63,265 bases of DNA from Marinobacterium jannaschii DSM 6295 (lineage in GTDB: Bacteria > Pseudomonadota > Gammaproteobacteria > Pseudomonadales > Balneatricaceae). Location of the stretch: assembly GCF_000620085.1 (NCBI RefSeq), contig NZ_JHVJ01000030.1:1-63265 (forward strand). The letters are read 5' to 3'. The notes under the pieces are model-generated. The model worked only from the letters and a program-made list of their open reading frames with translations. It made no database searches and was not told the origin of the DNA. How positions within the stretch are numbered: the stretch's first letter is position 1; each line of letters opens with the position of its first letter. Both the position numbers and the translations under genes were made by a program. Below, piece by piece: positions 47,330-63,265 of this stretch.

Positions 47330-49681
47330 ATGGATCTTTCCAGGTTGTATGAGAAGCGCTGGTGGGTAGTGCTTCTTAGCATTCTGAGCATTATTGTAGT
47401 GGCCACCGGTGCTGCGAACGTCGTGCAGACGGCCGACTACAAAGTCTACTTCGATAAAGGCGACGAGCTGCTGATGCGCTCGGAAAAACTGGGAGATGAT
47501 TACTCCCGGAGCGACAACGTGCTGTTCGTACTGGCACCGAAAAACGGTGAAGTATTTACACAGCAAACCCTTGCTGCGGTTAAGACACTAACCGAAAAGG
47601 CATGGAAGCTACCCCTGTCGACCCGGGTCGACTCCATCACCAACTACCAGCATAGCTATGCCGACCAGGATGAGCTGATTATTGCTGATCTGGTGGCCGA
47701 CCCGGCTGCACTGGATGCGCAGCAACTGGCGGCGGTGAAAACAACCGCGCTGGCTGAGCCGAACCTGAAAAGACGCCTGATCTCTGAAGACGGCAAGGTG
47801 ACAGCGGTCAATGTCACCATCAACTTTACGGATGGCAAGGTCGATACCGAGACCCGTGAAGTGGTTGCCGCAGCCCGTGCCCTGGTGGCCGAGACCGAGG
47901 CGGCGCATCCGCAGATCGACCTCTACCTGACCGGTATCGTGCTGATGAATAACGCCTTCCCGGAAACTTCCGAGAAGGACGGTGCCACCCTGGTACCGGC
48001 GATGCTGCTGATCATTCTGGTGGGCCTGTTCCTGCTGCTGCGCTCTGCCGCTGCCGTTGGTGTAACGCTGCTGGTGATGTTGCTTTCCATTGCCGCTTCC
48101 ATGGGTGTGGCTGGCTGGATGGGTTATAAGATCAACCCGGTTTCCGGCGCGGCGCCGATTATTATCCTCACCGTGGCGGTGGCGGACTGTGTGCATATTC
48201 TGATCAGTTTCTTCCACAACTTCCGCAATACGGCGATGTGTAAGGGCGAAGCGATGGGCGCGGCGATCAAGAGCAATGCCCGTCCGGTACTGCTGACCAC
48301 GCTGAGCACCGGTATCGGTTTCCTCAGCATGAACTTCTCCGATGCTCCGCCGTTCCGCGAGCTGGGTAACATCGTTGCCGGTGGTATCTTCGCGGCCTGC
48401 TTCCTGTCGCTGACTCTGCTGCCAGCGCTGCTGACCCTGCTGCCACTGAAGAAGGGCAAACAGGAGGGCAAGCAGAATCTACGCCTGTCCAACGCACTGC
48501 TGTCACTGTCGAAGAAGGTCTGGGCGGCACCGCGTCAGATCCTGATTGGTGGCCTGATCGCCTCTGTCCTGCTCAGTGCGGCGGCGTTTAAGAACGAGCT
48601 GAATGAAGATTTCGTGCGCTACTTTGACGAGAGCTTCGATGTCCGCGTCTCCACCGAATTCACCCTGAAGAACCTGACCGGTATCAGCGTGGTGGAGTAT
48701 GACTTTGCCGCCCCTGAGGGTAACTCTGTCAGCGATCCGGCTTACCTCAACAAGCTCGACAGCTTCGCCCAGTGGCTCTACCAGCAGCCGGAAGTGAAGC
48801 ACGTTAATACGTTCTCCGACACCATCAAGCGCCTGAACAAGAACCTCAATGGTGATCGCGAAGAGGCCTATCAGATTCCTGACAGCAATGATCTGATCGC
48901 CCAGTACATCCTGCTGTACGAAAACTCCCTGCCGTTTGGCCTGGGTATTACCGACCGCGTGCTGTTCGATAAGTCCGGCAGCCGGGTTACTGTGACTCTG
49001 GGTGATGTCACCAACAACCAGTTGCTGGCTTTCGAGGCCCGCTCACAGGGTTGGTTGAAGCAGAACTTCCCGCAGGCGATGCGCAGCGAAGGGCTGGGCT
49101 GGTCGATGATGTTTGGCGGCGTAGCGCAGAAGAATATCGCCAGCATGCTGGAAGCGACCTTCCTGGCGGTGCTGCTGATCTCAGTGATCATGGCCTGGTC
49201 GTTCCGTTCGGTGAAACTGGGCGTGCTGAGCTTGCTGCCTAACCTGGCACCGGCCTTTGTGGCGCTGGGTGTCTGGGGCCTGACTGTCGGCTTTATCGGC
49301 ATGGCGGCCTCAATCATCACCGCGCTGACCTTTGGCATCGTGGTGGATGACAGCATCCACTTTATCAACCGCTACATGCATAACCGCCGCAGTTTGGGGA
49401 TGTCCCTGAAGGACGCACTGGAGAACACCTTTGTCACTGTCGGTAAGGCGATTGTGGTGACCTCGGTGATCCTGGTGATCGGCTTCGCACTGCTGACCAC
49501 ATCCGGTTTCAAGGTTAACAGCGTGATCGGTTACCTCTCTGCTATCACCATCTTCGTTGCGGTGGTGATGGATCTGGTGCTGCTGCCAGCACTGCTGATC
49601 AAACTGGACAAATGGCTGTTCCCTTCAAACAGCGATGCGAACGCAACGGCCGCTGACAAAGCGACCGTCTCCGCCCAGTAA
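47330..49681 (+). CDS. MMPL/RND family exporter
   Basis: A 783-residue membrane protein with the RND layout: one N-terminal helix, a periplasmic domain, helices 2-6 (about 210-385), then a repeat of the pattern (helix near 400, second periplasmic domain, five helices from about 600). The membrane Asp in VADCVHILISFFHN and VVDDSIHFINRY carry proton relay positions. Relatives (MmpL, HpnN-like) export lipids, lipopeptides or pigments. It opens the FAAL-NRPS operon, 36 bases ahead of the ligase gene, and very likely exports its product. AGGGTGAG precedes the start. Confidence 0.9.
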   Translation: MDLSRLYEKRWWVVLLSILSIIVVATGAANVVQTADYKVYFDKGDELLMRSEKLGDDYSRSDNVLFVLAPKNGEVFTQQTLAAVKTLTEKAWKLPLSTRVDSITNYQHSYADQDELIIADLVADPAALDAQQLAAVKTTALAEPNLKRRLISEDGKVTAVNVTINFTDGKVDTETREVVAAARALVAETEAAHPQIDLYLTGIVLMNNAFPETSEKDGATLVPAMLLIILVGLFLLLRSAAAVGVTLLVMLLSIAASMGVAGWMGYKINPVSGAAPIIILTVAVADCVHILISFFHNFRNTAMCKGEAMGAAIKSNARPVLLTTLSTGIGFLSMNFSDAPPFRELGNIVAGGIFAACFLSLTLLPALLTLLPLKKGKQEGKQNLRLSNALLSLSKKVWAAPRQILIGGLIASVLLSAAAFKNELNEDFVRYFDESFDVRVSTEFTLKNLTGISVVEYDFAAPEGNSVSDPAYLNKLDSFAQWLYQQPEVKHVNTFSDTIKRLNKNLNGDREEAYQIPDSNDLIAQYILLYENSLPFGLGITDRVLFDKSGSRVTVTLGDVTNNQLLAFEARSQGWLKQNFPQAMRSEGLGWSMMFGGVAQKNIASMLEATFLAVLLISVIMAWSFRSVKLGVLSLLPNLAPAFVALGVWGLTVGFIGMAASIITALTFGIVVDDSIHFINRYMHNRRSLGMSLKDALENTFVTVGKAIVVTSVILVIGFALLTTSGFKVNSVIGYLSAITIFVAVVMDLVLLPALLIKLDKWLFPSNSDANATAADKATVSAQ

Positions 49682-49717
49682 TCCTAAAACGACAAGCGAG
49701 CCGTGGAGCTGCCTGAT

Positions 49718-51478
49718 ATGGATAATTCAGGTGGCTCTGCCCTGAAAGCCATGAAAGAACTAATACCTTTTGAGGGTGATTCACTGATCGACCTGATCCG
49801 CTTCCGTGCGCGTGTTCAGCCCGATCAGCTGGCCTACACCCATCTGAAAGAGAAGAAAAACGAGATCGCCGAGATCAGTTACCGCGAACTGGAAGAGCGG
49901 ATTCTGATCCTGGCAGCCCGCCTGCAGCGCCGACAGGTAGCCGGTGAGCGGCTGATCCTGATGTACCCTTCGGGGCTGGATTATCTGGTGGCTTACTTTG
50001 CCACCCTATTTGCCGGCGCCATTGCGGTACCTGTTTATGAGCCGCGCCAGAGCACCCATTACAATCGACTGGAGAGCATCCTAAAGGATGCAAAACCCAG
50101 GCTGTTGCTGACCGATCAGGCGACGCTGCAGCGCTCCAGCGAAGAGAGTATCGCCAGCCTGAGCCTGTTCGGTGCCGAATGGTTCTGCACCGACAGCGAC
50201 GAGGCTGAGCCGGTCAGTGCCGCTGACTGGCAGCCGATCGAGCTGGCGCAGGACGATGTGGTGTTCCTGCAGTATACCTCCGGCTCCACCGGTAACCCCA
50301 AAGGGGTGATGGTGAGCAACGGCAACCTGATGCACAACTCGGCGATGATCAAGGCGGCGACCAAGCCCCATGCGGATTTCGTCAATGTCTCCTGGCTGCC
50401 GCCTTACCACGATATGGGGCTGATCGGGGCACTGCTGCAACCGCTCTACAGCGGTTACCACTGTGTCTTTATGTCGCCGGTAACGGCAATCCAACGTCCG
50501 ATTCGCTTGCTGGAGGCGATCCAGAAATACCGCGGCACCATCTGCGGCGGGCCGAACTTTATCTACGAAGCCTGCGTCAGCCGGATCCGCGATAAGCAGT
50601 TGGATGGCTTAGACCTGAGCAGCTGGGAAGTCGCCTTCAACGGTGCCGAGCCGATCAATGCCGACACCCTGAGCCGTTTCAGCGAGCGTTTCGAGGCCTT
50701 TGGCTTTAACCCGGATGCCCATTTCCCTTGCTACGGCATGGCCGAGACCACCCTGTTCGTGTCCGGTGCCGAGACCTTTGCCGGGGCTGTGGTTCGTGGT
50801 TACGACAAGGAGGGCCTGGCCCGGGGTGAAGCGATTGCGGCGCAGGGTGATAAAGCCCGCGAACTGGTCAGCAGTGGCCGGGTGTTCGAGTCGGAGATGA
50901 CGGTCAAGATCGTCGATCCGGTCAGCTGTCTGCCCTGCGATGAGCGCCGCATCGGCGAGATCTGGATCCGTGGCGGCAGCGTCGCCAGCGGCTACTGGCA
51001 GCGCGACGAGGTGCCGGGTGAGGATTTCTTCGGCCTGATCGAGGGTGATAACGCCCACCGCTACCTGCGTACCGGCGACCTGGGCTTCTTCGATGGCCAG
51101 GAGCTGTTTATCTCCGGCCGCACCAAGGACCTGATCATCATTCGCGGCAAGAACCACTACCCGCAGGATATCGAGTACAGCGTAGCCGGCGCCCATGCCG
51201 AACTGAAGCCGGACTCCGGTGCCGCCTTCGCGGTGGATATCGACGGCTTCGAGCAGCTGGTGATGCTGCAGGAGCTGAATATCCGTATCGACGAAGCCGG
51301 GCAGGGGGAGATCCTTGAGGAGATCCGCACGGTGGTGTCGCGTCAGCACGAGATGCAGTTGGCGGACCTGCGCTTTATCCGTCCCGGTACTTTGCCCAAG
51401 ACCACCAGCGGCAAGATCCAGCGTCAGGCAGCGAAGCGGATGTACCTGGCGATGCTCAACGGCGATAGCCATAAATAA
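49718..51478 (+). CDS. Fatty acyl-AMP ligase (FAAL)
   Basis: About 586 residues of the ANL adenylating superfamily. FLQYTSGSTGNPKGVMVSN is the phosphate loop and WLPPYHDMGLIG is diagnostic for FAALs, which activate fatty acids as acyl-AMP and pass them to a carrier protein instead of CoA. CYGMAETTLFVSG, YLRTGDLGFF and the C-terminal PKTTSGKIQRQ (catalytic Lys) are intact. I chose ATG 49718 because GGAG lies nine bases upstream; GTG 49703 is an alternative. The partner should be the carrier protein at 53283. Chain length is not readable from the sequence. Confidence 0.93.
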   Translation: MDNSGGSALKAMKELIPFEGDSLIDLIRFRARVQPDQLAYTHLKEKKNEIAEISYRELEERILILAARLQRRQVAGERLILMYPSGLDYLVAYFATLFAGAIAVPVYEPRQSTHYNRLESILKDAKPRLLLTDQATLQRSSEESIASLSLFGAEWFCTDSDEAEPVSAADWQPIELAQDDVVFLQYTSGSTGNPKGVMVSNGNLMHNSAMIKAATKPHADFVNVSWLPPYHDMGLIGALLQPLYSGYHCVFMSPVTAIQRPIRLLEAIQKYRGTICGGPNFIYEACVSRIRDKQLDGLDLSSWEVAFNGAEPINADTLSRFSERFEAFGFNPDAHFPCYGMAETTLFVSGAETFAGAVVRGYDKEGLARGEAIAAQGDKARELVSSGRVFESEMTVKIVDPVSCLPCDERRIGEIWIRGGSVASGYWQRDEVPGEDFFGLIEGDNAHRYLRTGDLGFFDGQELFISGRTKDLIIIRGKNHYPQDIEYSVAGAHAELKPDSGAAFAVDIDGFEQLVMLQELNIRIDEAGQGEILEEIRTVVSRQHEMQLADLRFIRPGTLPKTTSGKIQRQAAKRMYLAMLNGDSHK

Positions 51479-51492
51479 CAGGAATAACAACA

Positions 51493-53286
51493 ATGGAAGC
51501 TACAATTTCGCAGCTGGCTAAACTGCCACAGCACCAGGCGGCGATCGACGTTGAGTACGCCCTGGGTGATCCCAATGATGAAACCAGCCTGATGTCCTAC
51601 AAGCGGGTGATGGAGCTGGATGAGGCTGAATTCTTCCAGGAGGAGTTCTTTCAGTACCTGCTGTCGATCAAACTACACCACAACTATGTGCCGGCGGAGC
51701 TGGGCGGCAAGTTTAAAAGCTACGAGCAGCTCTACGCCCTGGGGAAGGTACTGGCGCGTCGTGACCTGGCCACCGCTGTGACCATGAGCACCATGATCTG
51801 GTCAAACCTGGTATGGATCGGCGGCGATCAGGCGTTGAAAGAGCGTTGCGCCGAGATCACTAAATCCTACAACGGTGCCATGTGCCTGGCCTACTCCGAA
51901 GAGGATCATGGTGCCGACCTGCTGGCCAATAAGCTGACTGCCACCGAAACCGACGATGGCTTTATCCTCGACGGGGAGAAGTGGCCGATCAACCGCGCAT
52001 CCCGCTCCGAAGTGGTGATGTTGCTGGCACGCACCGCCAACGATCGCGGTGCCCGTAACCTGTCCCTGTTTATGGTGGAGAAGAGCAAGATCGATTGCTC
52101 CACCTTTACCTACCTGCCGAAGGTGAAGACCCATGGCCTGCGTGGCTGTGATATCTGCGGCATCCGTTTCAGCGGTACCAAGCTGCCGAAATCGGCACTG
52201 ATCGGTAAGGTCGGTGACGGCCTGGAACTGGCGATCAAGACCTTCCAGGTGACCCGTACTCTTTGTGCAGCGTTGTCGGTGGGTGCGCTGGAAAATAACC
52301 TGCGGGTGGTAATGGAGTTTGCCCTGGAGCGCCAGCTTTATCGCGGTAATGTGTTCGATATTCCTAACGCCCGTCACTATCTCAGCGGAGCTTTCGCCGA
52401 CCTGCAGGTGAGCGATGCCATGGGCACCGCCCTGTCGCGTGCCCTGCATGTGATCCCACAGCAGTTCAGTATCCTCTCAGCGGTAGCCAAGTGTTTCGCA
52501 CCGTATAAACTGGATAAGGCGCAGAAAGACCTGGCCACCGTGCTGGGTGCGCGCTTCTTCTTCCGTGAGAAGCACAAAGAGGGGATCTTCCAGAAGTCCC
52601 TGCGAGACAGCCAGGTGGTGAGCCTGTTTGATGGCAGCTCCGAGGTCAATCTCTACTCCATGACCACCCAGCTGCCGATCCTGGCGCGCCGCCAGCGCAA
52701 GGCATTTGGCAAGGGCAAACTGGTGGATCCGCAGACCCTGAGCGCCATTTTCGATGAGAGTCAGGCGGTGGAAACCTTTGATGGCAGCCGACTGGATCTT
52801 TCCAGCCATGGCCGTGACTTCATTATGGAGAGCTTCCCCCAGGCGATCGCCGCGCTGCAGCAGATTGAAGCGCCGAACGAGACCCAGGTCTGCATCCTGC
52901 AACTGGCCGAGACTTTGTTTGCCAAGCATAGCGCCAACATGGCTCGGATTCTGGAAGGGGGTGAGCGCAAGATCGAGCTGCAATCGCCAACTATGTTCAC
53001 CCTGGCACGCCAGTACTGCATTATCCACGCTGGTATCTGCGCCCTGAACTACTGGCTGCATAACCTGCAACACAGTGACAGTTATGTCGCCGCCGGTGAC
53101 TGGCTGGCCCTGGGCCTGCAGCGCCTGCTGCTGGAGCTGCATATCGATGATCAGGAGATCCCGGAGGCGATCAATCAGCGTGTCGCCGATGAACTGCTGG
53201 CCCGTAGCACCGAACAGGACAGCTACAGCCTGGTCTCCCTGTCCCTGCCTGAAAAACAACTTGAAGCCGTTGAGAAAATCGCATGA
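51493..53286 (+). CDS. Acyl-CoA-dehydrogenase-like flavoprotein, probable acyl-ACP desaturating enzyme
   Basis: A 597-residue protein. Residues 1-400 follow the acyl-CoA dehydrogenase fold (CLAYSEEDHGAD, ILDGEKWPINRAS, QVTRTLCAALSVGALENNLRVV), and about 200 more residues form a helical C-terminal extension. Where most relatives have catalytic Glu in YEGT, this has FDGS with Asp380. Its gene lies between FAAL and the carrier protein, so the likely substrate is the acyl chain on the carrier, oxidised to an unsaturated acyl group, as in tambjamine- or pyrrole-type pathways. Its stop overlaps the carrier gene in ATGA. Confidence 0.88.
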   Translation: MEATISQLAKLPQHQAAIDVEYALGDPNDETSLMSYKRVMELDEAEFFQEEFFQYLLSIKLHHNYVPAELGGKFKSYEQLYALGKVLARRDLATAVTMSTMIWSNLVWIGGDQALKERCAEITKSYNGAMCLAYSEEDHGADLLANKLTATETDDGFILDGEKWPINRASRSEVVMLLARTANDRGARNLSLFMVEKSKIDCSTFTYLPKVKTHGLRGCDICGIRFSGTKLPKSALIGKVGDGLELAIKTFQVTRTLCAALSVGALENNLRVVMEFALERQLYRGNVFDIPNARHYLSGAFADLQVSDAMGTALSRALHVIPQQFSILSAVAKCFAPYKLDKAQKDLATVLGARFFFREKHKEGIFQKSLRDSQVVSLFDGSSEVNLYSMTTQLPILARRQRKAFGKGKLVDPQTLSAIFDESQAVETFDGSRLDLSSHGRDFIMESFPQAIAALQQIEAPNETQVCILQLAETLFAKHSANMARILEGGERKIELQSPTMFTLARQYCIIHAGICALNYWLHNLQHSDSYVAAGDWLALGLQRLLLELHIDDQEIPEAINQRVADELLARSTEQDSYSLVSLSLPEKQLEAVEKIA

Positions 53287-53558
53287 CTGATATGACTACC
53301 GCCGCCCCAGCCGTGACCGATGTACAGAACAAAGTTGTCGAACTGCTGGCCGAGTGCCTGAAAGTCGACCGCTCCGAGATCGACCTTGAGAAACAGCTGA
53401 CCAGCTACGGCCTGGATTCGATCGATGCCGTCACTATGGTCGGGGATATCGAAGACTGGCTGGAGATCGAACTGCCCAGCACCCTGTTCTGGGACTGCGA
53501 GAACATTCGTGAAGTCGCCAGCTTCATTGTGGATAACTTCGACGACCTGGCTGAGTAA
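53283..53558 (+). CDS. Acyl carrier protein
   Basis: A 91-residue carrier protein. Ser46 in SYGLDSIDAV is the attachment site of phosphopantetheine, and the acidic helix II region (DIEDWLEIELP) is typical of stand-alone ACPs. The preceding gene overlaps by four bases and the NRPS follows 72 bases later. It should hold the fatty acyl chain made by the FAAL, be the substrate of the dehydrogenase and deliver the chain to the NRPS condensation domain. Confidence 0.95.
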   Translation: MTDMTTAAPAVTDVQNKVVELLAECLKVDRSEIDLEKQLTSYGLDSIDAVTMVGDIEDWLEIELPSTLFWDCENIREVASFIVDNFDDLAE

Positions 53559-53630
53559 TCAGCGGGCAGGCGGGCCACAGAGCCCGTCTGCCAATACCGG
53601 CCACGTATCAGGATTTTCAAGGACGCTTCT

Positions 53631-56600
53631 ATGACCCTTTCCGTCAGACCGATTACCGATGTGCAGAAGGGACTGGTCTACCTGCAACAGATCAATCCCC
53701 AGACCGCTGCCTACAATGTGGTGTTTGCCGCCAAGATTGAAGGAGAGTTTGATTTCGACTCCTTGCAGGCCGCTTTTTATCACCTGCAACAGCAGCACCT
53801 TGTGTTGCGCGAGCTGTTTGCCGAGGAAAATGGCGAGCTGATCGCCCGCGAACAGTCGACGCTGAAACTGGATATCCGCCGTGAGGATATCGCGTCGCTC
53901 TCCCCTGAGCAGGCGCACGCCCATATCTATGCCGCCTCCAGGGTGGCGTTCAATCTCTATCAGGATCTTTGTCTGAGGGTTGAACTGTTCCGTCTCAGTG
54001 AGAGCGAAACCGTGATGACGCTGGTCGCGCATCATGCCAATTTCGATTTCTGGTCACTGGCACTGCTGCTGGAGCAGCTGGCGGGGCATTATCAGGCCCT
54101 GAGTGCGGGTGACAGCCTGGCGCTGGACAGCGAGGCGATCCAGTTCGATCAGTACGTTGATCACCTGCAAGCGCTGCAGCAGAAGGATAAGTACCAGGCT
54201 GCCCGCGAGGAGCTATTGGCAGGCTTGCGGGGCAGCGACGGGGTGCTGAATCTCTCCACCGACCACTCGCGGTCACGCCTTAACCCGATGTCGGGTACTT
54301 CCTACAGCTTCGCCATTCCTGCGGATCTGACGGCAGCCGTGCATGAAACCGCCAAGGCACATAAAGTCACCCCGTATATGTACCTGCTCAGCGCCTTCCA
54401 GCTGGCGCTGCACCGCTACAGCGGTCAGGATGATCTGCTGGTGGGTACCCCGGCGGCCGGTCGCGATAAGCGTAAGTGGAACGGGGTGATGGGTAACTTC
54501 GTCAATACCCTGGTGCTGCGCAGTCAGGTCGATGAGACGAGCGACTTCGCCCAGATGCTGGCCAACACCTACCAGCGCGTCGTTACTTCGGTGCGTCACC
54601 AGAGCGTGCAGTTCCCGCAGCTGGTGGAAGGGCTGGGGCTGAAGCGTGACAGCAGCCGTACGCCGCTGATTCAGGCCAGTTTCGCCTGGGACCGGCTGCC
54701 GCAGTTTGCCGATATGGCTCACTTTTTCAGCCACTCCGATTGCAGCGCCACTGTAGAGTGGGGCGGCCTGAACCTGAGTCCGTACTGGATTCCTCAGCAG
54801 GAAGGTCAGTTTGATCTGGCGCTGGAGATGGGGGCCGAGATCGCCGGTGAGCTGACCGCCACCCTGAAATTCCGCGACGACCTGTTTGAGGCTGAAAGCG
54901 CCGCCTGCTTCGCGGCTAACTTTGTTGAGCTGCTGGGGCAGGTGACCGCCGATCCACAGCAGAATATTCACCAGGTGAAGCTGGTCGATGCTGAACAGCA
55001 GCAACGGATACTGGGGCTGGCCGACTCCGATATTCCGGTCAGTCCGGCGGTGAATACGGTGCATGGCCTGTTTCAGCAGCAGGCGGGAGAGACCCCGGAT
55101 GCGATCGCCGTGCGTGATCCGGATGGTGCTATGAGCTACCAGCAGCTGGAGACTGAATCCAGCCGTATCGCCGCCCTGCTGCAGTCGGAATACAAGGTGG
55201 CGGGTAAGCGGGTGGCGATCTGTCATCAGCGCAACCGCTACCTGCTGGTCAATCTGCTGGCGATCTTTAAGGCCGGTGCCAGCTATGTACCGATCGATCC
55301 CAATGTACCGGCGGCGCGCTCGCAGATGATCATCGAGGATGGTGACCTGAGCCTGCTGATCCAGGACGAGGCGATCAATCACCTGGATTTCTCTGCCGAA
55401 CTTCCGGTAGTCGGTGCCAGGATGCTGGGGATCGCGGCGGCTGCGGCGGAATCCCTGCCAGCCGCTCAGCCAGCGGCGCAGGTATCGGGCGATGATATCG
55501 CCTATATGATCTTTACCTCCGGCTCTACCGGACGGCCCAAGGGCGTATCCGTGCCGCACGGCTGCGTGGTGAACCTGCTGAGCAGCTTTGCCCAGTATCC
55601 GGGGATACGCCAGCAGCAGAGCCTGCTGGCGGTAACGACGATCTCTTTTGATATCTCGGTGCTGGAGCTGTTCCTGCCGATTACTCACGGTGGTGAGACT
55701 ATCATTATCGGCAGTGACGCTTCGGCCGATCCGCAGCAGCTGATCGCCTATATGGAGCAATTTCGGCCGCAGATCATGCAGGCGACCCCATCCCACTGGC
55801 GTATGCTGCTGGAAGCCGGCTGGCAGGGTGATCAGGCACTGACGGTCTACTGTGGCGGTGAGGCGCTGCCGCGCTCGCTGGCGGAGCAGCTGCTGGAAAA
55901 CTGTGCCGATCTCTACAATGTCTACGGCCCGACCGAGACCACCATCTGGTCGACTATCGAACACTACCGTGGCGGTGATGTCAGCATCGGCCGACCGATC
56001 GCCAACACCCAGGTCTATGTGGTGGACAGCAACCACCAGATCGTACCCCAAGGCGTGGTAGGCGAACTCTGCATCGGCGGTGACGGTGTCACTCAGGGCT
56101 ACTTTGAAAAGCCACAGCTGACCGCTGATGCCTTTATTGAGGCAGACTTCGTCACCGGAACTATCTACAAAACCGGCGACCAGGCGCGGATTAACTCCCG
56201 CGGCAAGCTGGAATGCCTGGGCCGGATCGGCAACCAGGTGAAGATCCGCGGTTTCCGTATCGAGCTGGACGATATCGAAGAGAACCTGCGCAAGATCGAT
56301 GGCATCAGCAACGCCGTGGTGGCAGCCAAAGCGCAGGCTGACGACAAGGTGCTGGTCTGCTACTACGTGGCTGAGGGCGAAAGCGCGGTCGAGAGCAAAG
56401 CAATCCGTGAGCAGCTCAAGGCAGCGTTACCCGCCTATATGGTACCGAACCTGTTCCAGCCAATGGCGCAGTTGCCGATGACCGCCAATGGTAAGGTTGA
56501 CCGCAAGCAGCTGCCGGAGCCGCAGGCGCAACAGAGCGATCGCGAATTGATGGCACCGCGCGGCGAGCTGGAATCCCGGTTGCTGAGCCTGTGGCAGCAG

Positions 56601-57647
56601 GTGCTGAAGCAGGAACTGATCAGTATTGAGGATGACTTCTACGATATTGGTGGACACTCTCTGCTGGCGGTACAGCTAACTGGCAGGATCAACCAGCAGC
56701 TGGGGCTTGAACTGGATAATCAGTTTTTGCTGAGTAACACCACCATCGCCGCGATGGCTGCCGCGATCGAGTCGGGCGAGACCGACAACGCCCACCCCAC
56801 CCTGGTCACCCTCAATAAGGGTGATAGTAGTCGCACGCCGCTGTTCCTGATGCACCCGATCGGCGGCACGGTTTACTGCTATATGGCGCTGGCCCAGGCG
56901 ATGGATAAGCAGCAACCGCTCTATGCCTTCCAGTCGCCGGGGATCGAAGAGGCGGAAGAGGCTGAGGTCGGTATCGAAGAGATCAGCCGTCATTACGTCA
57001 GGGTGATCCAGGAAGTACAGCCGGAAGGCCCAATCCTGCTGGGCGGTTGGTGCTTCGGTGGCGTGCTGGCCTATGAAGCAACCCGTCAGCTGCAGGCGGC
57101 CGGACGTGAAGTGGCGCAGATCTACTCCTTCGACACCCGTGCACCGATCGTCGCTAACCACCCGGACGATGGCGACGATGCCACCCTGCTGTCCTGGTTT
57201 GCCCGCGACCTGGCGGTACCGCACAACAAGACCCTGCATATCCCGCCCGAAGAACTGCGCGAGATCGAGGTCGACGAGCAGTTTGAGTATGTACTTGAGC
57301 GCGCCAAGGCGATCGGCGTAATCGACGCCGATGCCGATGAGGAGAAACTGCTCAACTACTTCTCCGTCTATATCGCCAACGGCATGGCACTGCAGATGTA
57401 CGAAGAACACAGTGTCGATGTGCCGCTAACCCTCTATTTCGCCCGTGATGAAACGGTCGACTACGGCCCGCTGCTGGGCTGGGATCAGCTGCTGCAGCAG
57501 GGACTGTGCAAGGTCGATATCGCCGGTGACCATAACTCGATTATGTATAAGCCGCAGGTGCAGCAGATCGCTGATGACCTGAGCTGCCGCCTGAACGACT
57601 ACCATTTTCAAACCACGGCCGAGGTCGTGACAGAGGAGGTTGCCTGA
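53631..57647 (+). CDS. One-module non-ribosomal peptide synthetase, C-A-T-TE
   Basis: 1338 residues. Condensation domain about 1-430 with HH at 134-135 and Asp139 (HHANFDFWS). Adenylation domain about 470-975: IFTSGSTGRPKGV, NVYGPTETTIWST, YKTGDQARI, NGKVDRKQLP; the specificity code read by eye is DILQYGVIWK (Asp674 first), closest to the glycine code. Carrier domain with Ser1010 in GGHSLL. Thioesterase about 1075-1338 with GWCFGG: Cys1141, Asp1168 and His1301 as likely triad, Cys instead of Ser. It should join the acyl chain to glycine and release the product. AAGGA precedes the start. Confidence 0.94.
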   Translation: MTLSVRPITDVQKGLVYLQQINPQTAAYNVVFAAKIEGEFDFDSLQAAFYHLQQQHLVLRELFAEENGELIAREQSTLKLDIRREDIASLSPEQAHAHIYAASRVAFNLYQDLCLRVELFRLSESETVMTLVAHHANFDFWSLALLLEQLAGHYQALSAGDSLALDSEAIQFDQYVDHLQALQQKDKYQAAREELLAGLRGSDGVLNLSTDHSRSRLNPMSGTSYSFAIPADLTAAVHETAKAHKVTPYMYLLSAFQLALHRYSGQDDLLVGTPAAGRDKRKWNGVMGNFVNTLVLRSQVDETSDFAQMLANTYQRVVTSVRHQSVQFPQLVEGLGLKRDSSRTPLIQASFAWDRLPQFADMAHFFSHSDCSATVEWGGLNLSPYWIPQQEGQFDLALEMGAEIAGELTATLKFRDDLFEAESAACFAANFVELLGQVTADPQQNIHQVKLVDAEQQQRILGLADSDIPVSPAVNTVHGLFQQQAGETPDAIAVRDPDGAMSYQQLETESSRIAALLQSEYKVAGKRVAICHQRNRYLLVNLLAIFKAGASYVPIDPNVPAARSQMIIEDGDLSLLIQDEAINHLDFSAELPVVGARMLGIAAAAAESLPAAQPAAQVSGDDIAYMIFTSGSTGRPKGVSVPHGCVVNLLSSFAQYPGIRQQQSLLAVTTISFDISVLELFLPITHGGETIIIGSDASADPQQLIAYMEQFRPQIMQATPSHWRMLLEAGWQGDQALTVYCGGEALPRSLAEQLLENCADLYNVYGPTETTIWSTIEHYRGGDVSIGRPIANTQVYVVDSNHQIVPQGVVGELCIGGDGVTQGYFEKPQLTADAFIEADFVTGTIYKTGDQARINSRGKLECLGRIGNQVKIRGFRIELDDIEENLRKIDGISNAVVAAKAQADDKVLVCYYVAEGESAVESKAIREQLKAALPAYMVPNLFQPMAQLPMTANGKVDRKQLPEPQAQQSDRELMAPRGELESRLLSLWQQVLKQELISIEDDFYDIGGHSLLAVQLTGRINQQLGLELDNQFLLSNTTIAAMAAAIESGETDNAHPTLVTLNKGDSSRTPLFLMHPIGGTVYCYMALAQAMDKQQPLYAFQSPGIEEAEEAEVGIEEISRHYVRVIQEVQPEGPILLGGWCFGGVLAYEATRQLQAAGREVAQIYSFDTRAPIVANHPDDGDDATLLSWFARDLAVPHNKTLHIPPEELREIEVDEQFEYVLERAKAIGVIDADADEEKLLNYFSVYIANGMALQMYEEHSVDVPLTLYFARDETVDYGPLLGWDQLLQQGLCKVDIAGDHNSIMYKPQVQQIADDLSCRLNDYHFQTTAEVVTEEVA

Positions 57648-58111
57648 TGAGCAACACTAAAGAGATCACTATGGAGAAGGAATACGTCCTCAAGGCCCCG
57701 CTGGCCGAGGTCTATGCGTTCCTCTCCAACCCGGAAAACGACGATATCTGGCAGGGCTCCTGCGACCGCGTCGAGATGCAGCAACCCGGCGAGCCGGTTG
57801 CCGCAGGCTCCAAGTACAACATTCACTTCAGCTTTCTCAGCCGCAAGATGAGCTTCGAAGCCGAAGTCAGCGAGTACGAGTTTGAAAAGAGCTACGGCTA
57901 CCAATCCACCGAAGGCCCGATGCCTTATGAAGGCCGCTACGTCTTTACCGAAACCGAAGAAGGCGTCCACGTGAACTGGACCTTCGGTGCCACCCCCGGA
58001 AAATTCTTCGGCATCATCCCCAAAGCCCTGATCCGCAAGACCATGGATAAAAAGGTGCTGGAAGATATCGAACGCCTGCAACAGCACTTTGCCAGCGCAA
58101 CCATCAACTAG
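57647..58111 (+). CDS. SRPBCC (START-like/polyketide-cyclase-type) protein
   Basis: A 154-residue protein of the SRPBCC ligand-binding fold: an N-terminal strand KEYVLKAPLAEVYAFLSNPENDD, a central sheet (FEAEVSEYEFEKSYGYQS) and a long C-terminal helix. Members bind hydrophobic molecules and some catalyse aromatisation or cyclisation of polyketides. It overlaps the NRPS stop (TGATG) and is the last gene before the terminator, so it likely acts on or carries the product of the NRPS. Exact reaction unknown. Confidence 0.85.
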   Translation: MSNTKEITMEKEYVLKAPLAEVYAFLSNPENDDIWQGSCDRVEMQQPGEPVAAGSKYNIHFSFLSRKMSFEAEVSEYEFEKSYGYQSTEGPMPYEGRYVFTETEEGVHVNWTFGATPGKFFGIIPKALIRKTMDKKVLEDIERLQQHFASATIN

Positions 58112-58496: not shown

Positions 58497-61400
58497 ATGC
58501 GCCGCAATCCTGAGTCCAAATCGTCGTTGGCAGCCTCCATCCGCAGGGCCATTAAGGCCACCTGCCTGACCTCATCTGTTCTGCTGTTAACCGCTTGTGG
58601 CGGTGGAGGTGGTGGGGGAAGTTCCTCTGATCCGATTCCGGTAGATCCAGATCCAGATCCGATTTCGGTTCCGACGGTTCCGCAGCCGGTTAGTGGTGGC
58701 GGCGTTAAAGGCCCTATGGCAAACGCGCTTGTAACGGCGTACCGCATCGATACCACTAAAGCTGGTTTTGTTGGTACAGAGCTGGCCAAAGCGTCGACCA
58801 ACAGCGTGGCTGAAATCGTCGGACTCAGCATCGACCTGAATTTTGGCCTGCCATTTATCCTGGTGATCGAGGCCGATGATGACACTATCGACCTAAACAG
58901 TGGCAAGGCGCCGGTTATCAAGCAGCTGAAGACGGTGGTTACGCCTGAGATGCTTCGGGCTGGTAAGCCACTTTATGCCACACCACTGACCTCGATGGCG
59001 GTCGATATGGCCGTGGCCATGAGCGATAGCAACCAGGCGCCGTATCAGGGTGATGGCAATGGCACGGTCACCCTTGACGAGTTTACAAGCGCCCTGGCAG
59101 TAGCCGCCGGACAGGTGGTTTCCAGCCTCGGTTATGGTATGGAGACCGGCACGGATCTCTACCGCGCCGTGCCGCTGATCGATGAGAACACGGCCAGCGA
59201 AGAGGCCAAGAAAGCGGCAGTGCGCTACCGTACCGCGGTGGAGTCTGTTGCGGCAACCGTGGTTGAACTGCAAGGCAAAGCGGGTGAGTCTGCGGCCACC
59301 GAAGAGGTGATGAAGAACCTGGCAGAGGATCTGGCGGATGGTGAAATCGATGGCCGTCTGAAGGACCGTGAGCTGGAGCTGCTGAAAGATATCAATGACC
59401 TTGGCGATATTGTCACCAAAGACCCGGCGCAGCGACATATCCCAGATACCGATATTTTGATTGGCGACCTTGAACGGCATCTGGCCAAAGAGGCCAAAAT
59501 GCGCGGCGTTGACGTCGACGTTGAAGATCTGGAAACAGGTGTTATTGCCCTCGACCCGGAGCTGGCGGCGCTGCTGGCCGATGCCGACCGGGATGGTGTG
59601 GCAGACAAGCAGGATCGCTTCCCTTTTAATCCCGAAGAAACCGCAGACCGGGATAACGACGGCGTCGGTGATAATGGCGACCGCTTCCCGGATGATGCCA
59701 GTGAAAGCCGCGACAGCGATAACGACGGCTATGGCGATAACGCAGACCGTTTCCCACACGACGTCAGTGAGCATCAGGATAGTGACGGTGATGGTGTAGG
59801 GGATAATGGCGACCGCTTCCCGGATGATGCAAGTGAAAGCCGCGATAGCGACGGGGATGGCTATGGTGACAATGCCGATCTATTTCCAGAAGATGCCACA
59901 GAATATGAGGATAGTGATGGCGATGGGATTGGGAATAACTCAGATGCGGAGCCTAATATCCCGCTAATCGGGCCTGATAAAGATCGAGATGGAGTTGCTG
60001 ATTCTAAAGATGCTTTTCCTGAGGATGCGCGAGAGCAGTATGACACTGATGGAGATGGTGTAGGAGACAATCAAGACCGTTTCCCAAACGACCGAAATGA
60101 GCATTCCGATCTTGATGGAGATGGTATTGGAGATAACTCAGACGGTACACCACTTGGAAGCTTTGATGGGAATATCTCAGTTGGCAGCTCTGTTATTTTC
60201 TATGTAGAGCAGGACGGTGCTGTTGAGTGGAACATTTATAGTGCTCCCGAAAATAGTGCCTACGCGGATATTAACCACGTTGGTAAAGAGTTTTTAATTA
60301 CTCCAGATGTAGTTGGAAGGTATGACTTTCAAGTGAAGTTAACAACACCTGGAGGTCAACCTTACTATTTGAATGAATTTATGTATGCGCACAACTCCGA
60401 ACCTGCGGTTGTGGTTAATGGTAATGGTGGAGTGAAAGTTAACGAGCTAACTGTGTTGGATGCGTCACGGAGTTCTGATGCAGATGGTCATTTGCTTTCT
60501 TTTAGCTGGGAGCTTATTTCTGCTCCGGATGGTAGTGTGCCAAGTATAATCGGTGATCGAGGGCCGAAACTTAGCTTTATTGCCGATAAGCAGGGGGAAT
60601 ACGTATTAGAACTAACAGTATCGGATGGCTGGTCATCTAAGAAGACGACCATAGATATAGGTGTTAGCCCCTATCAGCTAGAGTTGTTACCATTTAGTCC
60701 TGTTGATGCAGAATATAGCGAATATTTGGACAGTATTATAGCTGCATCGACTGATGGTGGTTTTCATATATATAATCCATTTGACCGGTCTCATAAACTT
60801 ATAGATATTCCTTTTGAGGCGAAAAGTGTGAGTGCTTTCAGGGAGGAGTCTTATGCAATAGTTGCCGGTGATAATTCGGTGGGCTTTTTAAATCTTGATA
60901 GTCTTGAACTGGAAGTTTCAATAGTTGGCTTGGATGGGATATCAGAAGCTATCCTAGGGGAAGGAGGGTATGTATACTTATTTCCTGCTGAAGGTTACGA
61001 AGATATTACCGTTGTTGATCGGCTAGGGAGTATTGAAAAGCATGATTATTTCTGGGGGCACGTAGCACGAGGTAAAATGCATCCTGATGGTAAATCAGTT
61101 TATCTTGTTGACTTAGATAGTATCCCTGTTGATATGGCTAAATACCGAGCTGATGCAGGAAGTGTTCGATTTTTAGGTAGTGATCCGTATCATGGTGCTT
61201 ATCCAATATGCGACGATTTATGGCCTTCTAATGATGGATTGAGAATGTTTTCTGCATGTGGAAATGTTTTCAGGTCTTCAGATTATGAAGGCCAAGATAT
61301 GAAATATAATGGTGCACTGGAAGGCTTTGAAAAGGCTAGTTACATTCGTCAAATTGATAGGGAAATACTTGTTGTTTCAGCTCCTGGTTTGGGAGAAGCA

Positions 61401-62921
61401 CAGCAGCTAAATAGCTCTTTCGTTTATAAATATGATAATGATGATTTGAGCTATAAAGGCAAGGATAGACTGCCTGTATTTAAAACGCCTGATGGGAATT
61501 ACCCGTCGATTGGTAAATATATATTTTATAGCAAAAGGTACAGTAAGCACTTTGTTGTAACTGAGGCTTTTAACCCAACAGAAGAAGCACCAGTCTTTGG
61601 AATTGCATCTTTGGATGTTAATACAGTTGATAATCAATTGGTTGCGAATATTTCAGGCCCCTCGTCAGCTATAGTCGGCACAGTGGTTACTCTTGAAGGC
61701 CGTCCTGATACAAGTGTTGCTTCAGGCGAACTCAAGTACTTTTGGCGTATATTGAATAAACCTCAGTCAAGTAATATCTCCGTTAGTGATAACGAAAATT
61801 TCTCATCATCTTTGCATTTAACAGCTGACGTTCCTGGGGTCTATCAGGTAGCTCTACAAGTTAGCAATAACGGTGTGGCCGGAAAAGAGACAGTTTTTGA
61901 ATTGCATGTGTCTGATGTAAGCGGGGAAATTTTTACGAGAATTCCAACAGCTGCAATTGATGCTGAATATTCGGACTCTCTCGAAAGGCTAGTCTGGATA
62001 GGCGCTACACCCTCTAAGTTATATCAGTTCAGTGTCAATGATAGGCGGATTACAGAGCTCAGCCTACCTGGGGTTCCATACTCTCTATCAGTATCACCTG
62101 ATGGTAAAAAAGCAGTGGTGGGGTACGCTGGACAGCTGTCCTATATAGACTTAGCTGATAACTCAATATTGAAGACAGTGACGCTGCAGGAGTTGACAAG
62201 CTTCCCTTATACTGTAACGCCTTATGACATTGTGCTTACTGATGGTGGATATGCTTATGTTATGCCTAATGCGGGAAGTTGGGTAAAAATCCAGGCAGTT
62301 AATCTGAACAGTGGTGCTATAACCTTCAACGAAGGGAGGGATGAATATAATAAAGGAAAAATGGCGTTGAGTGACGATCAGCGTTATATCTATATCGCTA
62401 CAACTGTTATTACTTCGAATTACATCAAGAAATATGCAATTGATAGTGGTTATGTAGCACTTGTAGGCTCATCTCAAGGCAAGACTTCAAAGCCTACATG
62501 TGGAGGTGTTTGGTCATCAGAGGATAACGCAAGTATATTCACCCGTTGTGGGAATGTGCTTTATTCCTCTGAATCGGAAAACGATATGGAGTTTTTTGGT
62601 GAATTAGAGCGTTACGGAAGCCACTCTTATATCAAAAGCCTTGACCGTAGAGAAAGTGAAGTAGCAGTGCTTTACGAAGCATGGCCTTCAAGGCTCGGAG
62701 TGGGGGATGAAGAGCAAGGAGTGTCCTTTTATAGCACCTCATCGTTTGAGCTATTGCGTCGAGAGTCACTGCCAGAATTCCCTACACAGGATGGCAGTTA
62801 TGAGGCCTTTGGGCGTTTTCTGTTCTATAACTCAGACGGTAGCCAGCTAATCGTAATCGTTCAGTCTGATGAGGCATCCGGCCTGTTAAAGGATTACGGT
62901 ATTTTTGTGATCGACCAGTAG
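58497..62921 (+). CDS. Large surface lipoprotein with TSP3 repeats and PKD/beta-propeller modules
   Basis: 1474 residues. The N-terminus has a lipobox LTAC followed by a run of Gly and Ser, so it should be a lipoprotein, probably on the cell surface. Residues 60-350 form a conserved alpha/beta region. Nine 22-residue thrombospondin-type-3 repeats (about 362-550), rich in DxDxDG, should bind calcium. After them come two similar modules, each a PKD-like domain plus a seven-bladed-propeller-like part (DAEYSEYLDS and DAEYSDSLER open the two propellers). The 5' part is GC-rich, the 3' part clearly AT-rich. Ligand unknown. Confidence 0.88.
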   Translation: MRRNPESKSSLAASIRRAIKATCLTSSVLLLTACGGGGGGGSSSDPIPVDPDPDPISVPTVPQPVSGGGVKGPMANALVTAYRIDTTKAGFVGTELAKASTNSVAEIVGLSIDLNFGLPFILVIEADDDTIDLNSGKAPVIKQLKTVVTPEMLRAGKPLYATPLTSMAVDMAVAMSDSNQAPYQGDGNGTVTLDEFTSALAVAAGQVVSSLGYGMETGTDLYRAVPLIDENTASEEAKKAAVRYRTAVESVAATVVELQGKAGESAATEEVMKNLAEDLADGEIDGRLKDRELELLKDINDLGDIVTKDPAQRHIPDTDILIGDLERHLAKEAKMRGVDVDVEDLETGVIALDPELAALLADADRDGVADKQDRFPFNPEETADRDNDGVGDNGDRFPDDASESRDSDNDGYGDNADRFPHDVSEHQDSDGDGVGDNGDRFPDDASESRDSDGDGYGDNADLFPEDATEYEDSDGDGIGNNSDAEPNIPLIGPDKDRDGVADSKDAFPEDAREQYDTDGDGVGDNQDRFPNDRNEHSDLDGDGIGDNSDGTPLGSFDGNISVGSSVIFYVEQDGAVEWNIYSAPENSAYADINHVGKEFLITPDVVGRYDFQVKLTTPGGQPYYLNEFMYAHNSEPAVVVNGNGGVKVNELTVLDASRSSDADGHLLSFSWELISAPDGSVPSIIGDRGPKLSFIADKQGEYVLELTVSDGWSSKKTTIDIGVSPYQLELLPFSPVDAEYSEYLDSIIAASTDGGFHIYNPFDRSHKLIDIPFEAKSVSAFREESYAIVAGDNSVGFLNLDSLELEVSIVGLDGISEAILGEGGYVYLFPAEGYEDITVVDRLGSIEKHDYFWGHVARGKMHPDGKSVYLVDLDSIPVDMAKYRADAGSVRFLGSDPYHGAYPICDDLWPSNDGLRMFSACGNVFRSSDYEGQDMKYNGALEGFEKASYIRQIDREILVVSAPGLGEAQQLNSSFVYKYDNDDLSYKGKDRLPVFKTPDGNYPSIGKYIFYSKRYSKHFVVTEAFNPTEEAPVFGIASLDVNTVDNQLVANISGPSSAIVGTVVTLEGRPDTSVASGELKYFWRILNKPQSSNISVSDNENFSSSLHLTADVPGVYQVALQVSNNGVAGKETVFELHVSDVSGEIFTRIPTAAIDAEYSDSLERLVWIGATPSKLYQFSVNDRRITELSLPGVPYSLSVSPDGKKAVVGYAGQLSYIDLADNSILKTVTLQELTSFPYTVTPYDIVLTDGGYAYVMPNAGSWVKIQAVNLNSGAITFNEGRDEYNKGKMALSDDQRYIYIATTVITSNYIKKYAIDSGYVALVGSSQGKTSKPTCGGVWSSEDNASIFTRCGNVLYSSESENDMEFFGELERYGSHSYIKSLDRRESEVAVLYEAWPSRLGVGDEEQGVSFYSTSSFELLRRESLPEFPTQDGSYEAFGRFLFYNSDGSQLIVIVQSDEASGLLKDYGIFVIDQ
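59580..60146 (+). repeat. Tandem 66-bp repeats encoding calcium-binding TSP3 units
   Basis: Nine units with the protein pattern DxDxDGxGDNxDxFPxD. Units two and four are nearly identical in DNA over about 45 bases (from 59670 and from 59802, exactly 132 bases apart), indicating recent duplication. GC content falls along the array from about 59890. Confidence 0.85.
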
Positions 62922-62940
62922 TCATAGCAATCTAGAGAAA

Positions 62941-62979
62941 GTACAAAGACCAGCCCCTCGTGCTGGCCTTTGTACTTTA
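62941..62979 (+). terminator. Terminator of the lipoprotein gene
   Basis: A 14-bp stem with one mismatch (62941-62954 with 62962-62975), loop CCCTCGT, then TTTAT. It lies 19 bases after the stop codon. Confidence 0.8.
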
Positions 62980-63265
62980 TGTTCGGAATTTATTAACCCC
63001 TCCGTTTACTTTCCCCTGCAAGGGATTCGCGCCCCGTGCTACTATGTTGCACGGGATTTTTGGCCTGATCGCGGGGTTCACGGGGCTTCGTTCCGGAATC
63101 TGCTTGATGTGGCCTGCCGGGCGCTGTAACGTTTCGCCTTTGGTAACTCACAGGGCTTCTCTCTCCATGCTGTTAATGATCGATAACAGGCATCGACTTC
63201 CGCAGTTATCCACATCTTTCCAGTAAGCCCCGCCAGATCAGTACTTTAAGCATAGTCGACTTCCG
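62980..63265. other. Gene-free right edge
   Basis: No supported gene. It contains TTATCCACA (63206-63214), identical to the DnaA-box consensus, and the direct repeat TCGACTTCCG at 63193-63202 and 63256-63265. On the minus strand a short frame (63207-63265, open to the window edge) could be the end of a gene but shows no domain. The region could be the edge of a mobile element; not provable here. Confidence 0.3.

Follow-up and report, generated by a model that had tools for sequence, protein, structure and literature searches.

Introduction

The closest described relative of the locus discussed here is the A1S_0112-0119 operon of Acinetobacter baumannii, for which the published description lists a fatty acyl-AMP ligase (FAAL), an acyl-CoA-dehydrogenase-family flavoprotein (ACAD), an ACP, an NRPS, an RND exporter, a porin-like protein, an epimerase/hydrolase and a PPTase (PMC5376624). 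According to the same source, the NRPS of this operon, A1S_0115, is the ortholog of AB3403, and the product, acinetin 505, was no longer detected after deletion of the ACP gene A1S_0114; the compound is reported from both inside and outside the cells. The structure of acinetin 505 is given there as a proposal; it combines an alpha-thio glycine with an acyl chain that is neither N- nor O-linked and that carries no unsaturation, and the authors mention the glycine part as a possible substrate of the dehydrogenase (PMC5376624). Transposon mutants in A1S_0112 and A1S_0115 lost motility and pellicles (PMC4457973), mutants in A1S_0113 and A1S_0116 were described as motility-deficient (PMC7997844), and deletion of abaR lowered all three genes tested (PMC9657202; see also PMC9162365).

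Part of this gene set is also familiar from lipopeptide biosynthesis. A cassette of FAAL, ACAD and ACP is reported to go with unsaturated acyl starters in Streptomyces-type lipopeptides, where gene disruption assigned the cis-3 double bond of friulimicin to LipB, and the 2,3 double bond of laspartomycin is credited to a LipB homolog (PMC9113097). Desaturation by ACAD-type enzymes was likewise proposed for rotihibin (PMC8552735). The main text of a review on FAALs is without Acinetobacter (PMC11837247), and for that reason the acinetin-type family may be under-noticed.

The locus compared here with these systems belongs to Marinobacterium jannaschii DSM 6295 and lies in a stretch of 63,265 nucleotides of contig NZ_JHVJ01000030.1 that was analysed as a whole and is called the window below. 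An earlier note on this DNA had described an operon at 47330-58111 with a combination of genes that it did not recognise from a named pathway. The operon is real and well formed, and the kind of pathway is one that is already known: it probably belongs, as a distant member, to the lipid-glycine pathways of the acinetin 505 (A1S_0112-0119) type.

Organization of the operon

Six open reading frames, all on the plus strand, fill the region and are tightly packed (Table 1), with intergenic distances of 21, 14, -4, 72 and -1 bp along the operon. The -4 bp overlap is that of the ACAD and ACP genes, and the -1 bp overlap that of the NRPS and SRPBCC genes. The co-directional arrangement and both start-stop overlaps had been read correctly in the earlier note, and its six gene identities agree with the Pfam and NCBIfam families. 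A terminator had also been proposed, and a strong hairpin is indeed present past the last stop codon, with a folding energy of -31.5 kcal/mol for a 74-nt stretch (z -7.6) that none of 200 shuffled sequences equalled; it is absent from the list produced by a consensus scan. The GC content of the six genes is 0.551-0.601, with a GC3 of 0.73-0.76, versus 0.470 and 0.414 for the next gene downstream. That gene, which starts at 58497, 385 bp further on, was not counted in.

Table 1 Features of the operon in the window
Feature	Position	Strand	Basis
MMPL/HAE3-type RND exporter, 783 aa, without LolA-like tail	47330..49681	+	Pfam MMPL 3.3e-39
Fatty acyl-AMP ligase (FAAL), GTG start	49703..51478	+	NCBIfam fatty-acid--AMP ligase models, below cut-offs
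Acyl-CoA-dehydrogenase-family flavoprotein (ACAD), 597 aa, proposed acyl-ACP dehydrogenase	51493..53286	+	Pfam Acyl-CoA_dh_M, Acyl-CoA_dh_1
Free-standing ACP, GLDSIDA phosphopantetheine site	53283..53558	+	Pfam PP-binding 6.8e-17, translation
One-module C-A-T-TE NRPS	53631..57647	+	Pfam; best PDB match 4zxh
SRPBCC-fold protein, 154 aa	57647..58111	+	Pfam Polyketide_cyc2 1.2e-11
Terminator-like hairpin, 17-pair stem, 6-nt loop	58132..58171	+	Folding energy compared with shuffles

The downstream gene (58497-62921, plus strand) encodes a lipoprotein-like protein of 1474 aa with matches to PKD and thrombospondin type 3 repeats and with two C-terminal halves that look similar by eye. GC content is 0.421 in 60001-63000, versus 0.55-0.61 across nearly all of the window.

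Both PPTase matches in the genome are located on contigs other than that of the operon; judged by its length, the 265-aa frame on one of these (C3) would be an Sfp-like PPTase.

Occurrence of related loci

Eleven loci with related genes were examined, and in seven of these the six-component set was found: in all three A. baumannii records (L019, L026, L027), in Pseudomonas sp. KNUC1026 (L007), where all six components were matched, and in L021, L022 and L023. This count includes partial matches, since the NRPS frame is interrupted in L019 and L027 and the FAAL of L007 is in two frames. Incomplete sets are those of L008 from Streptomyces, which yielded no match for FAAL or MMPL, of L020, where the contig stops inside the NRPS and the SRPBCC gene of the same genome (G261) is on another contig (L046), and of L024 and L025, where the ACAD stands in a different context; another partial copy is L047. 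A search of genomes for the six-gene set had been suggested earlier, and the finding that the genes recur together elsewhere points to more than chance.

The order MMPL-FAAL-ACAD-ACP-NRPS-SRPBCC of the window is shared by L021 (genome G365) and L022 (G137), and its first five genes by L020, as far as the contig reaches into the NRPS. Proteins of these three loci are 38-52% identical to those of the window. Unlike in the window, the SRPBCC gene of L021 and of L022 is immediately followed by a PPTase gene.

In a class sample of 369 genomes, the ACAD was found at E <=1e-40 in seven, the window's own genome counted, and the SRPBCC profile matched at E <=1e-15 in five, namely that of the window, G137, G261, G365 and G393. 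These five are the genomes that carry the cluster; since four of them contributed rows to the profile, the independent result is the match in G261 together with the absence elsewhere, and a chance figure for the co-occurrence of SRPBCC and cluster was discarded on the same ground. Among 57 relatives (five of the same genus, the own genome included) the ACAD was present at E <=1e-40 only in the window's genome. In a phylum sample, the SRPBCC profile matched 33 of 398 genomes, the 32 besides the window's being weak matches of 60-76 bits versus 222. As the ACAD and SRPBCC proteins thus occur in few genomes of the class, relative and phylum samples, the distribution of the operon is sporadic, with the restriction that none of these samples is known to include an Acinetobacter. 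A comparison of 20 kb around pyrC in three genomes of the same genus (ORFs of at least 90 aa) gave matches of the window only to pyrC itself (3/3) and to an opposite-strand ORF over pyrC (2/3), and since the shared ORFs are limited to these two, no empty site can be defined in the genus.

Some further observations were made on these loci. The weak matches of the phylum sample, which were set aside, represent a second, weaker SRPBCC family (L048-L066 and others), and 30 of the 32 are from one taxonomic family. The two overlapping frames of the FAAL of Pseudomonas sp. KNUC1026 lie at 8251-10007 of L007, and the gene may be broken or misread. In two of the three A. baumannii records (L019, L027) the stop codon that interrupts the NRPS falls within the condensation domain; the NRPS of the third is intact. 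All three records, of 3.7-4.1 Mb in a plasmid collection, look like chromosomes filed as plasmids.

The acyl cassette

The FAAL matches Pfam AMP-binding (9.7e-66), and in NCBIfam it aligns best with positions 1-556 of a large NRPS/PKS model (5.4e-158). Fatty-acid--AMP ligase models come next, from 2.6e-127 downwards in strength, and none of these NCBIfam matches reaches its curated cut-off; matches in the PDB are 7r7g and 3kxw. Identity to its partners in L007, L019-L023, L026 and L027 is 37-47%. The ACAD is 34-46% identical to its partners in the same loci and in L008, and only 31-32% to those in L024 and L025. The order FAAL-ACAD-ACAD-ACP, with two ACADs in a row, is found in annotated Streptomyces and Burkholderia loci, and the window ACAD is about 35% identical to the ACADs of loci L028 and L029.

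An alignment of ten ACADs shows a conserved family. Of the two positions for the catalytic base of acyl-CoA dehydrogenases, the C-terminal one was judged by eye to be acidic in three of the ten rows (a Glu in the window protein) and the other in none, and alignment with solved ACADs shows an insertion at the base region. Because of the few rows with an acidic base residue and this insertion, the desaturation chemistry of the ACAD must be considered uncertain.

The NRPS

Condensation, AMP-binding, PP-binding and Thioesterase matches of Pfam are united in a single NRPS protein, with the C domain at residues 7-461, the A domain at 481-955, the T domain at 983-1046 and the TE from 1070. Its best match in the PDB, which is AB3403/ABBFA_003403, was found with an E value of 6.5e-269, and the NRPS of A. 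baumannii L026 matches the same structure over its full length (2929 bits). The idea that no named pathway resembles the operon was therefore abandoned, the NRPS being closest to AB3403 and the same six components being present in A. baumannii.

Seven NRPSs could be aligned (window, L007, L008, L026, L021, L022, L023); those of L019 and L027 (interrupted frames), L020 (contig end), L047, and L024 and L025 (other kinds) were left out. The positions of the A-domain code, which follow the GrsA numbering, were placed by motif and not by a tool. In this way the code DILQYGVIWK was obtained for the window, DILQLGVVWK for A. baumannii, DIVQIGAIWK for L008 and DILQLG-x-x-WK for the other four, so that DILQ-x-G-x-x-WK holds for six of the seven, L008 being the exception. 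The A. baumannii NRPS that has the code DILQLGVVWK is an ortholog of the protein that was crystallised with glycine and AMP (PMC5376624), and with its glycine-like code the A domain of the window would be of the glycine type. The motif HHxxxDFW, the serine of the carrier motif GGHS and the TE motif GGWCFGG, with a cysteine as nucleophile, are present in 7/7.

Exporter and SRPBCC protein

The window MMPL is 50-52% identical to the first gene product of L020, L021 and L022. Its identity to the A. baumannii, L007 and L023 exporters is no more than 22-24%, and it represents an MMPL subtype other than that of A. baumannii. A Pfam scan of the window protein gave no LolA-like match, while a LolA-like tail was found in all three related exporters scanned (L019, L007, L023). 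The exporter gene is the last one in the A. baumannii, L007 and L023 clusters and leads the window operon. Among the NCBIfam matches of the window exporter are HAE3 and hopanoid-transporter models; every match is far below its cut-off.

An MMPL of the window subtype (42%) is also found in L024 (7718-19491), beside an ACAD and opposite a 2319-aa NRPS-like frame, as another pairing of MMPL and ACAD.

The SRPBCC protein is 35-46% identical to its six partners, and 26 columns are invariant across the seven sequences, including D32, Q36, S38, C39, Y57 and K131. Its predicted structure has a mean pLDDT of 92 and matches WhiE aromatase/cyclase (3tl1) and onion lachrymatory factor synthase, but also ligand binders (PYL receptors, PR-10), and since it resembles ligand binders and cyclases alike, the fold gives no decision on function. 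The nearest solved structures by sequence profile, 2m47 and 2d4r, are both uncharacterised. In each A. baumannii record (3/3), SRPBCC and MMPL were matched to one and the same open frame, with identical limits; in L019 this frame has 1216 residues, with Pfam matches to SRPBCC at 1-141, then MMPL, and a LolA-like domain at 1028-1216. Such a shared frame suggests that the SRPBCC protein is tied to handling of the product for export. In the cited descriptions of the operon, A1S_0116 is listed as an RND transporter only, without an SRPBCC part; a literature search for SRPBCC, MMPL and nonribosomal peptide together found no paper in the library searched.

In Streptomyces L008, the SRPBCC gene directly follows the NRPS gene, a ketoacyl synthase takes the place of the FAAL, an MFS gene is near, and neither MMPL nor FAAL was found within 21.6 kb (about 10 kb on each side). 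This arrangement would leave room for an enzymatic role of the SRPBCC protein. As a locus, L008 (5294-18863) has an ACAD-ACP-NRPS-SRPBCC core with ketoacyl synthases replacing the FAAL, and a formyl transferase is found nearby together with the MFS gene.

Proposed pathway and alternatives

The observations from which the pathway was drawn up are the gene set, the operon geometry, the protein families, the glycine-like code, the TE cysteine and the recurrence of the set; from these we infer the catalytic steps, the chain length, the position of the double bond and the direction of transport. The FAAL would turn a fatty acid into an acyl-AMP and load it on the free ACP, after which the ACAD would take 2H from the acyl-ACP. 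The A domain would load glycine on the T domain, the C domain would join the acyl chain to the glycine, and the TE, with its cysteine nucleophile, would release an N-(unsaturated acyl)glycine, either as such or cyclised. The SRPBCC protein may bind the greasy product or finish it, and the MMPL exporter may move it out of the inner membrane. A route through FAAL, ACP, dehydrogenase and NRPS with incorporation of glycine had been put forward earlier, and it is supported by both the families and the A-domain code. A role in surface behaviour may be considered by analogy with Acinetobacter only.

Subtraction of Cys-Gly from the formula of acinetin 505 (C23H43N3O7S) leaves C18H33NO4, and this equals N-palmitoylglycine + O - 2H. 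On this arithmetic alone, the formula would suit a hydroxy-hexadecenoyl-glycine to which glutathione has been added at the double bond, and the lack of observed unsaturation in acinetin 505 would follow from the addition of a thiol at that bond. This reading departs from the published proposal, with its alpha-thio glycine and its chain that is not N- or O-linked (PMC5376624). For this operon and its relatives, the same elements can be joined to a dedicated lipid relay for export, a tentative reading that we consider rather doubtful as a whole: a cytosolic SRPBCC carrier would receive an electrophilic N-(2-enoyl)glycine from the NRPS and hand it to the MMPL, an exporter that carries its own LolA-like domain in Acinetobacter, Pseudomonas and L023, and acinetin 505 would be the spent, glutathione-derived adduct. 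LipB of friulimicin introduces a 3,4 and not a 2,3 double bond (PMC9113097), which counts against the proposed pathway.

Cyclisation by the SRPBCC protein was already suggested in the earlier note, and it is possible, if on balance not what we expect, that this protein is an enzyme which together with the cysteine TE cyclises the acyl-glycine, for example to a tetramic acid, oxazolone or lactam. The invariant residues, the predicted fold similarity to WhiE and lachrymatory factor synthase, and the position next to the NRPS in L008, with MFS and ketoacyl synthase genes near and no MMPL found, are in agreement with this, and cysteine TEs are able to cyclise, as in the case of ObiF, by which a beta-lactone is formed (PMC6668435). 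Against it stands the frame shared by SRPBCC and exporter in 3/3 A. baumannii records, with the LolA-like end seen in L019, and ligand binders are equally present among the predicted fold matches. The earlier suggestion is left in balance: the exporter fusion points to handling of the product, the arrangement in L008 the other way.

Instead of the acyl chain, the substrate of the ACAD may be a carrier-bound glycyl or acyl-glycyl group of the NRPS, to give an electrophilic glycine-derived unit, which would suit the interpretation of the mass spectra as an alpha-thio glycine without acyl unsaturation (PMC5376624) and the difficulty of placing the catalytic base residue in the alignment. We regard this as unlikely, since the gene is located between those for FAAL and ACP, as in lipopeptide clusters of which the relatives desaturate the acyl starter, and since the formula alone equally fits addition of a thiol to an acyl double bond. 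It is even harder to envisage, and seems quite improbable, that the product is an outer-membrane or envelope lipid for the cell itself instead of a secreted metabolite. Such a function would be in line with the HAE3 and hopanoid-transporter matches, which are far under cut-offs, and with the LolA-like tails of the three related exporters, but the window exporter is without such a tail and acinetin 505 was detected both in the cells and outside them (PMC5376624). A lipid-glycine pathway of the acinetin 505 type is the reading that we prefer.

Comparison with known systems

According to the papers cited above, the acinetin 505 cluster is needed for surface motility and pellicles of Acinetobacter; a distant relative in another organism offers a second, independent system for finding the product. 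What the comparison newly adds is the SRPBCC partner, the cysteine TE that is kept in 7/7, and a testable formula reading of acinetin 505.

The window operon combines FAAL, ACAD, ACP and a one-module C-A-T-TE NRPS, together with an RND/MMPL exporter of a different subtype and an SRPBCC protein. The A. baumannii A1S_0112-0119 cluster has the same components, including a glycine-type NRPS with cysteine TE, at protein identities of 22-43% to the window. The match to a characterised cluster of like gene content and known product, which the earlier note had named as a finding against its reading, thus essentially exists, with a product structure that is proposed only. The two differ in that A. baumannii has SRPBCC, MMPL and LolA-like parts in one open frame behind the NRPS, whereas an MMPL without LolA-like tail leads the window operon. 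The A. baumannii cluster is furthermore described with a porin-like gene, an epimerase/hydrolase gene, a PPTase and a neighbouring AbaI/AbaR system. None of the porin-like, epimerase/hydrolase and PPTase genes is in the window operon, and for the porin-like and epimerase/hydrolase proteins (A1S_0117-0118) weak, partial matches exist elsewhere in the genome. A LuxI search gave no match in the window's genome, nor in any of 14 control genomes, and for want of a positive control no quorum-sensing claim is drawn from it. Of the two nearest ideas named in the earlier note, the pyreudione-type one-module NRPSs have a TE that releases a tetramic acid through Dieckmann cyclisation, and lipid desaturation of the tambjamine type uses a FAAL-type ligase together with an acyl-ACP dehydrogenase.

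The lipoinitiation cassettes of friulimicin, laspartomycin and rotihibin have FAAL, ACAD and ACP genes as neighbours, as in the window, but they differ by two ACADs (in L028, L029 and rotihibin) and by larger NRPSs; the gene table of L028 and L029 is incomplete, and among its annotated features (12 and 14, respectively) there is no SRPBCC or MMPL. ObiF, the obafluorin NRPS, shares with the window NRPS the C-A-PCP-TE architecture and a cysteine as TE nucleophile, and differs by its aryl starter, its beta-hydroxy amino acid and a fused MbtH-like domain (PMC6668435).
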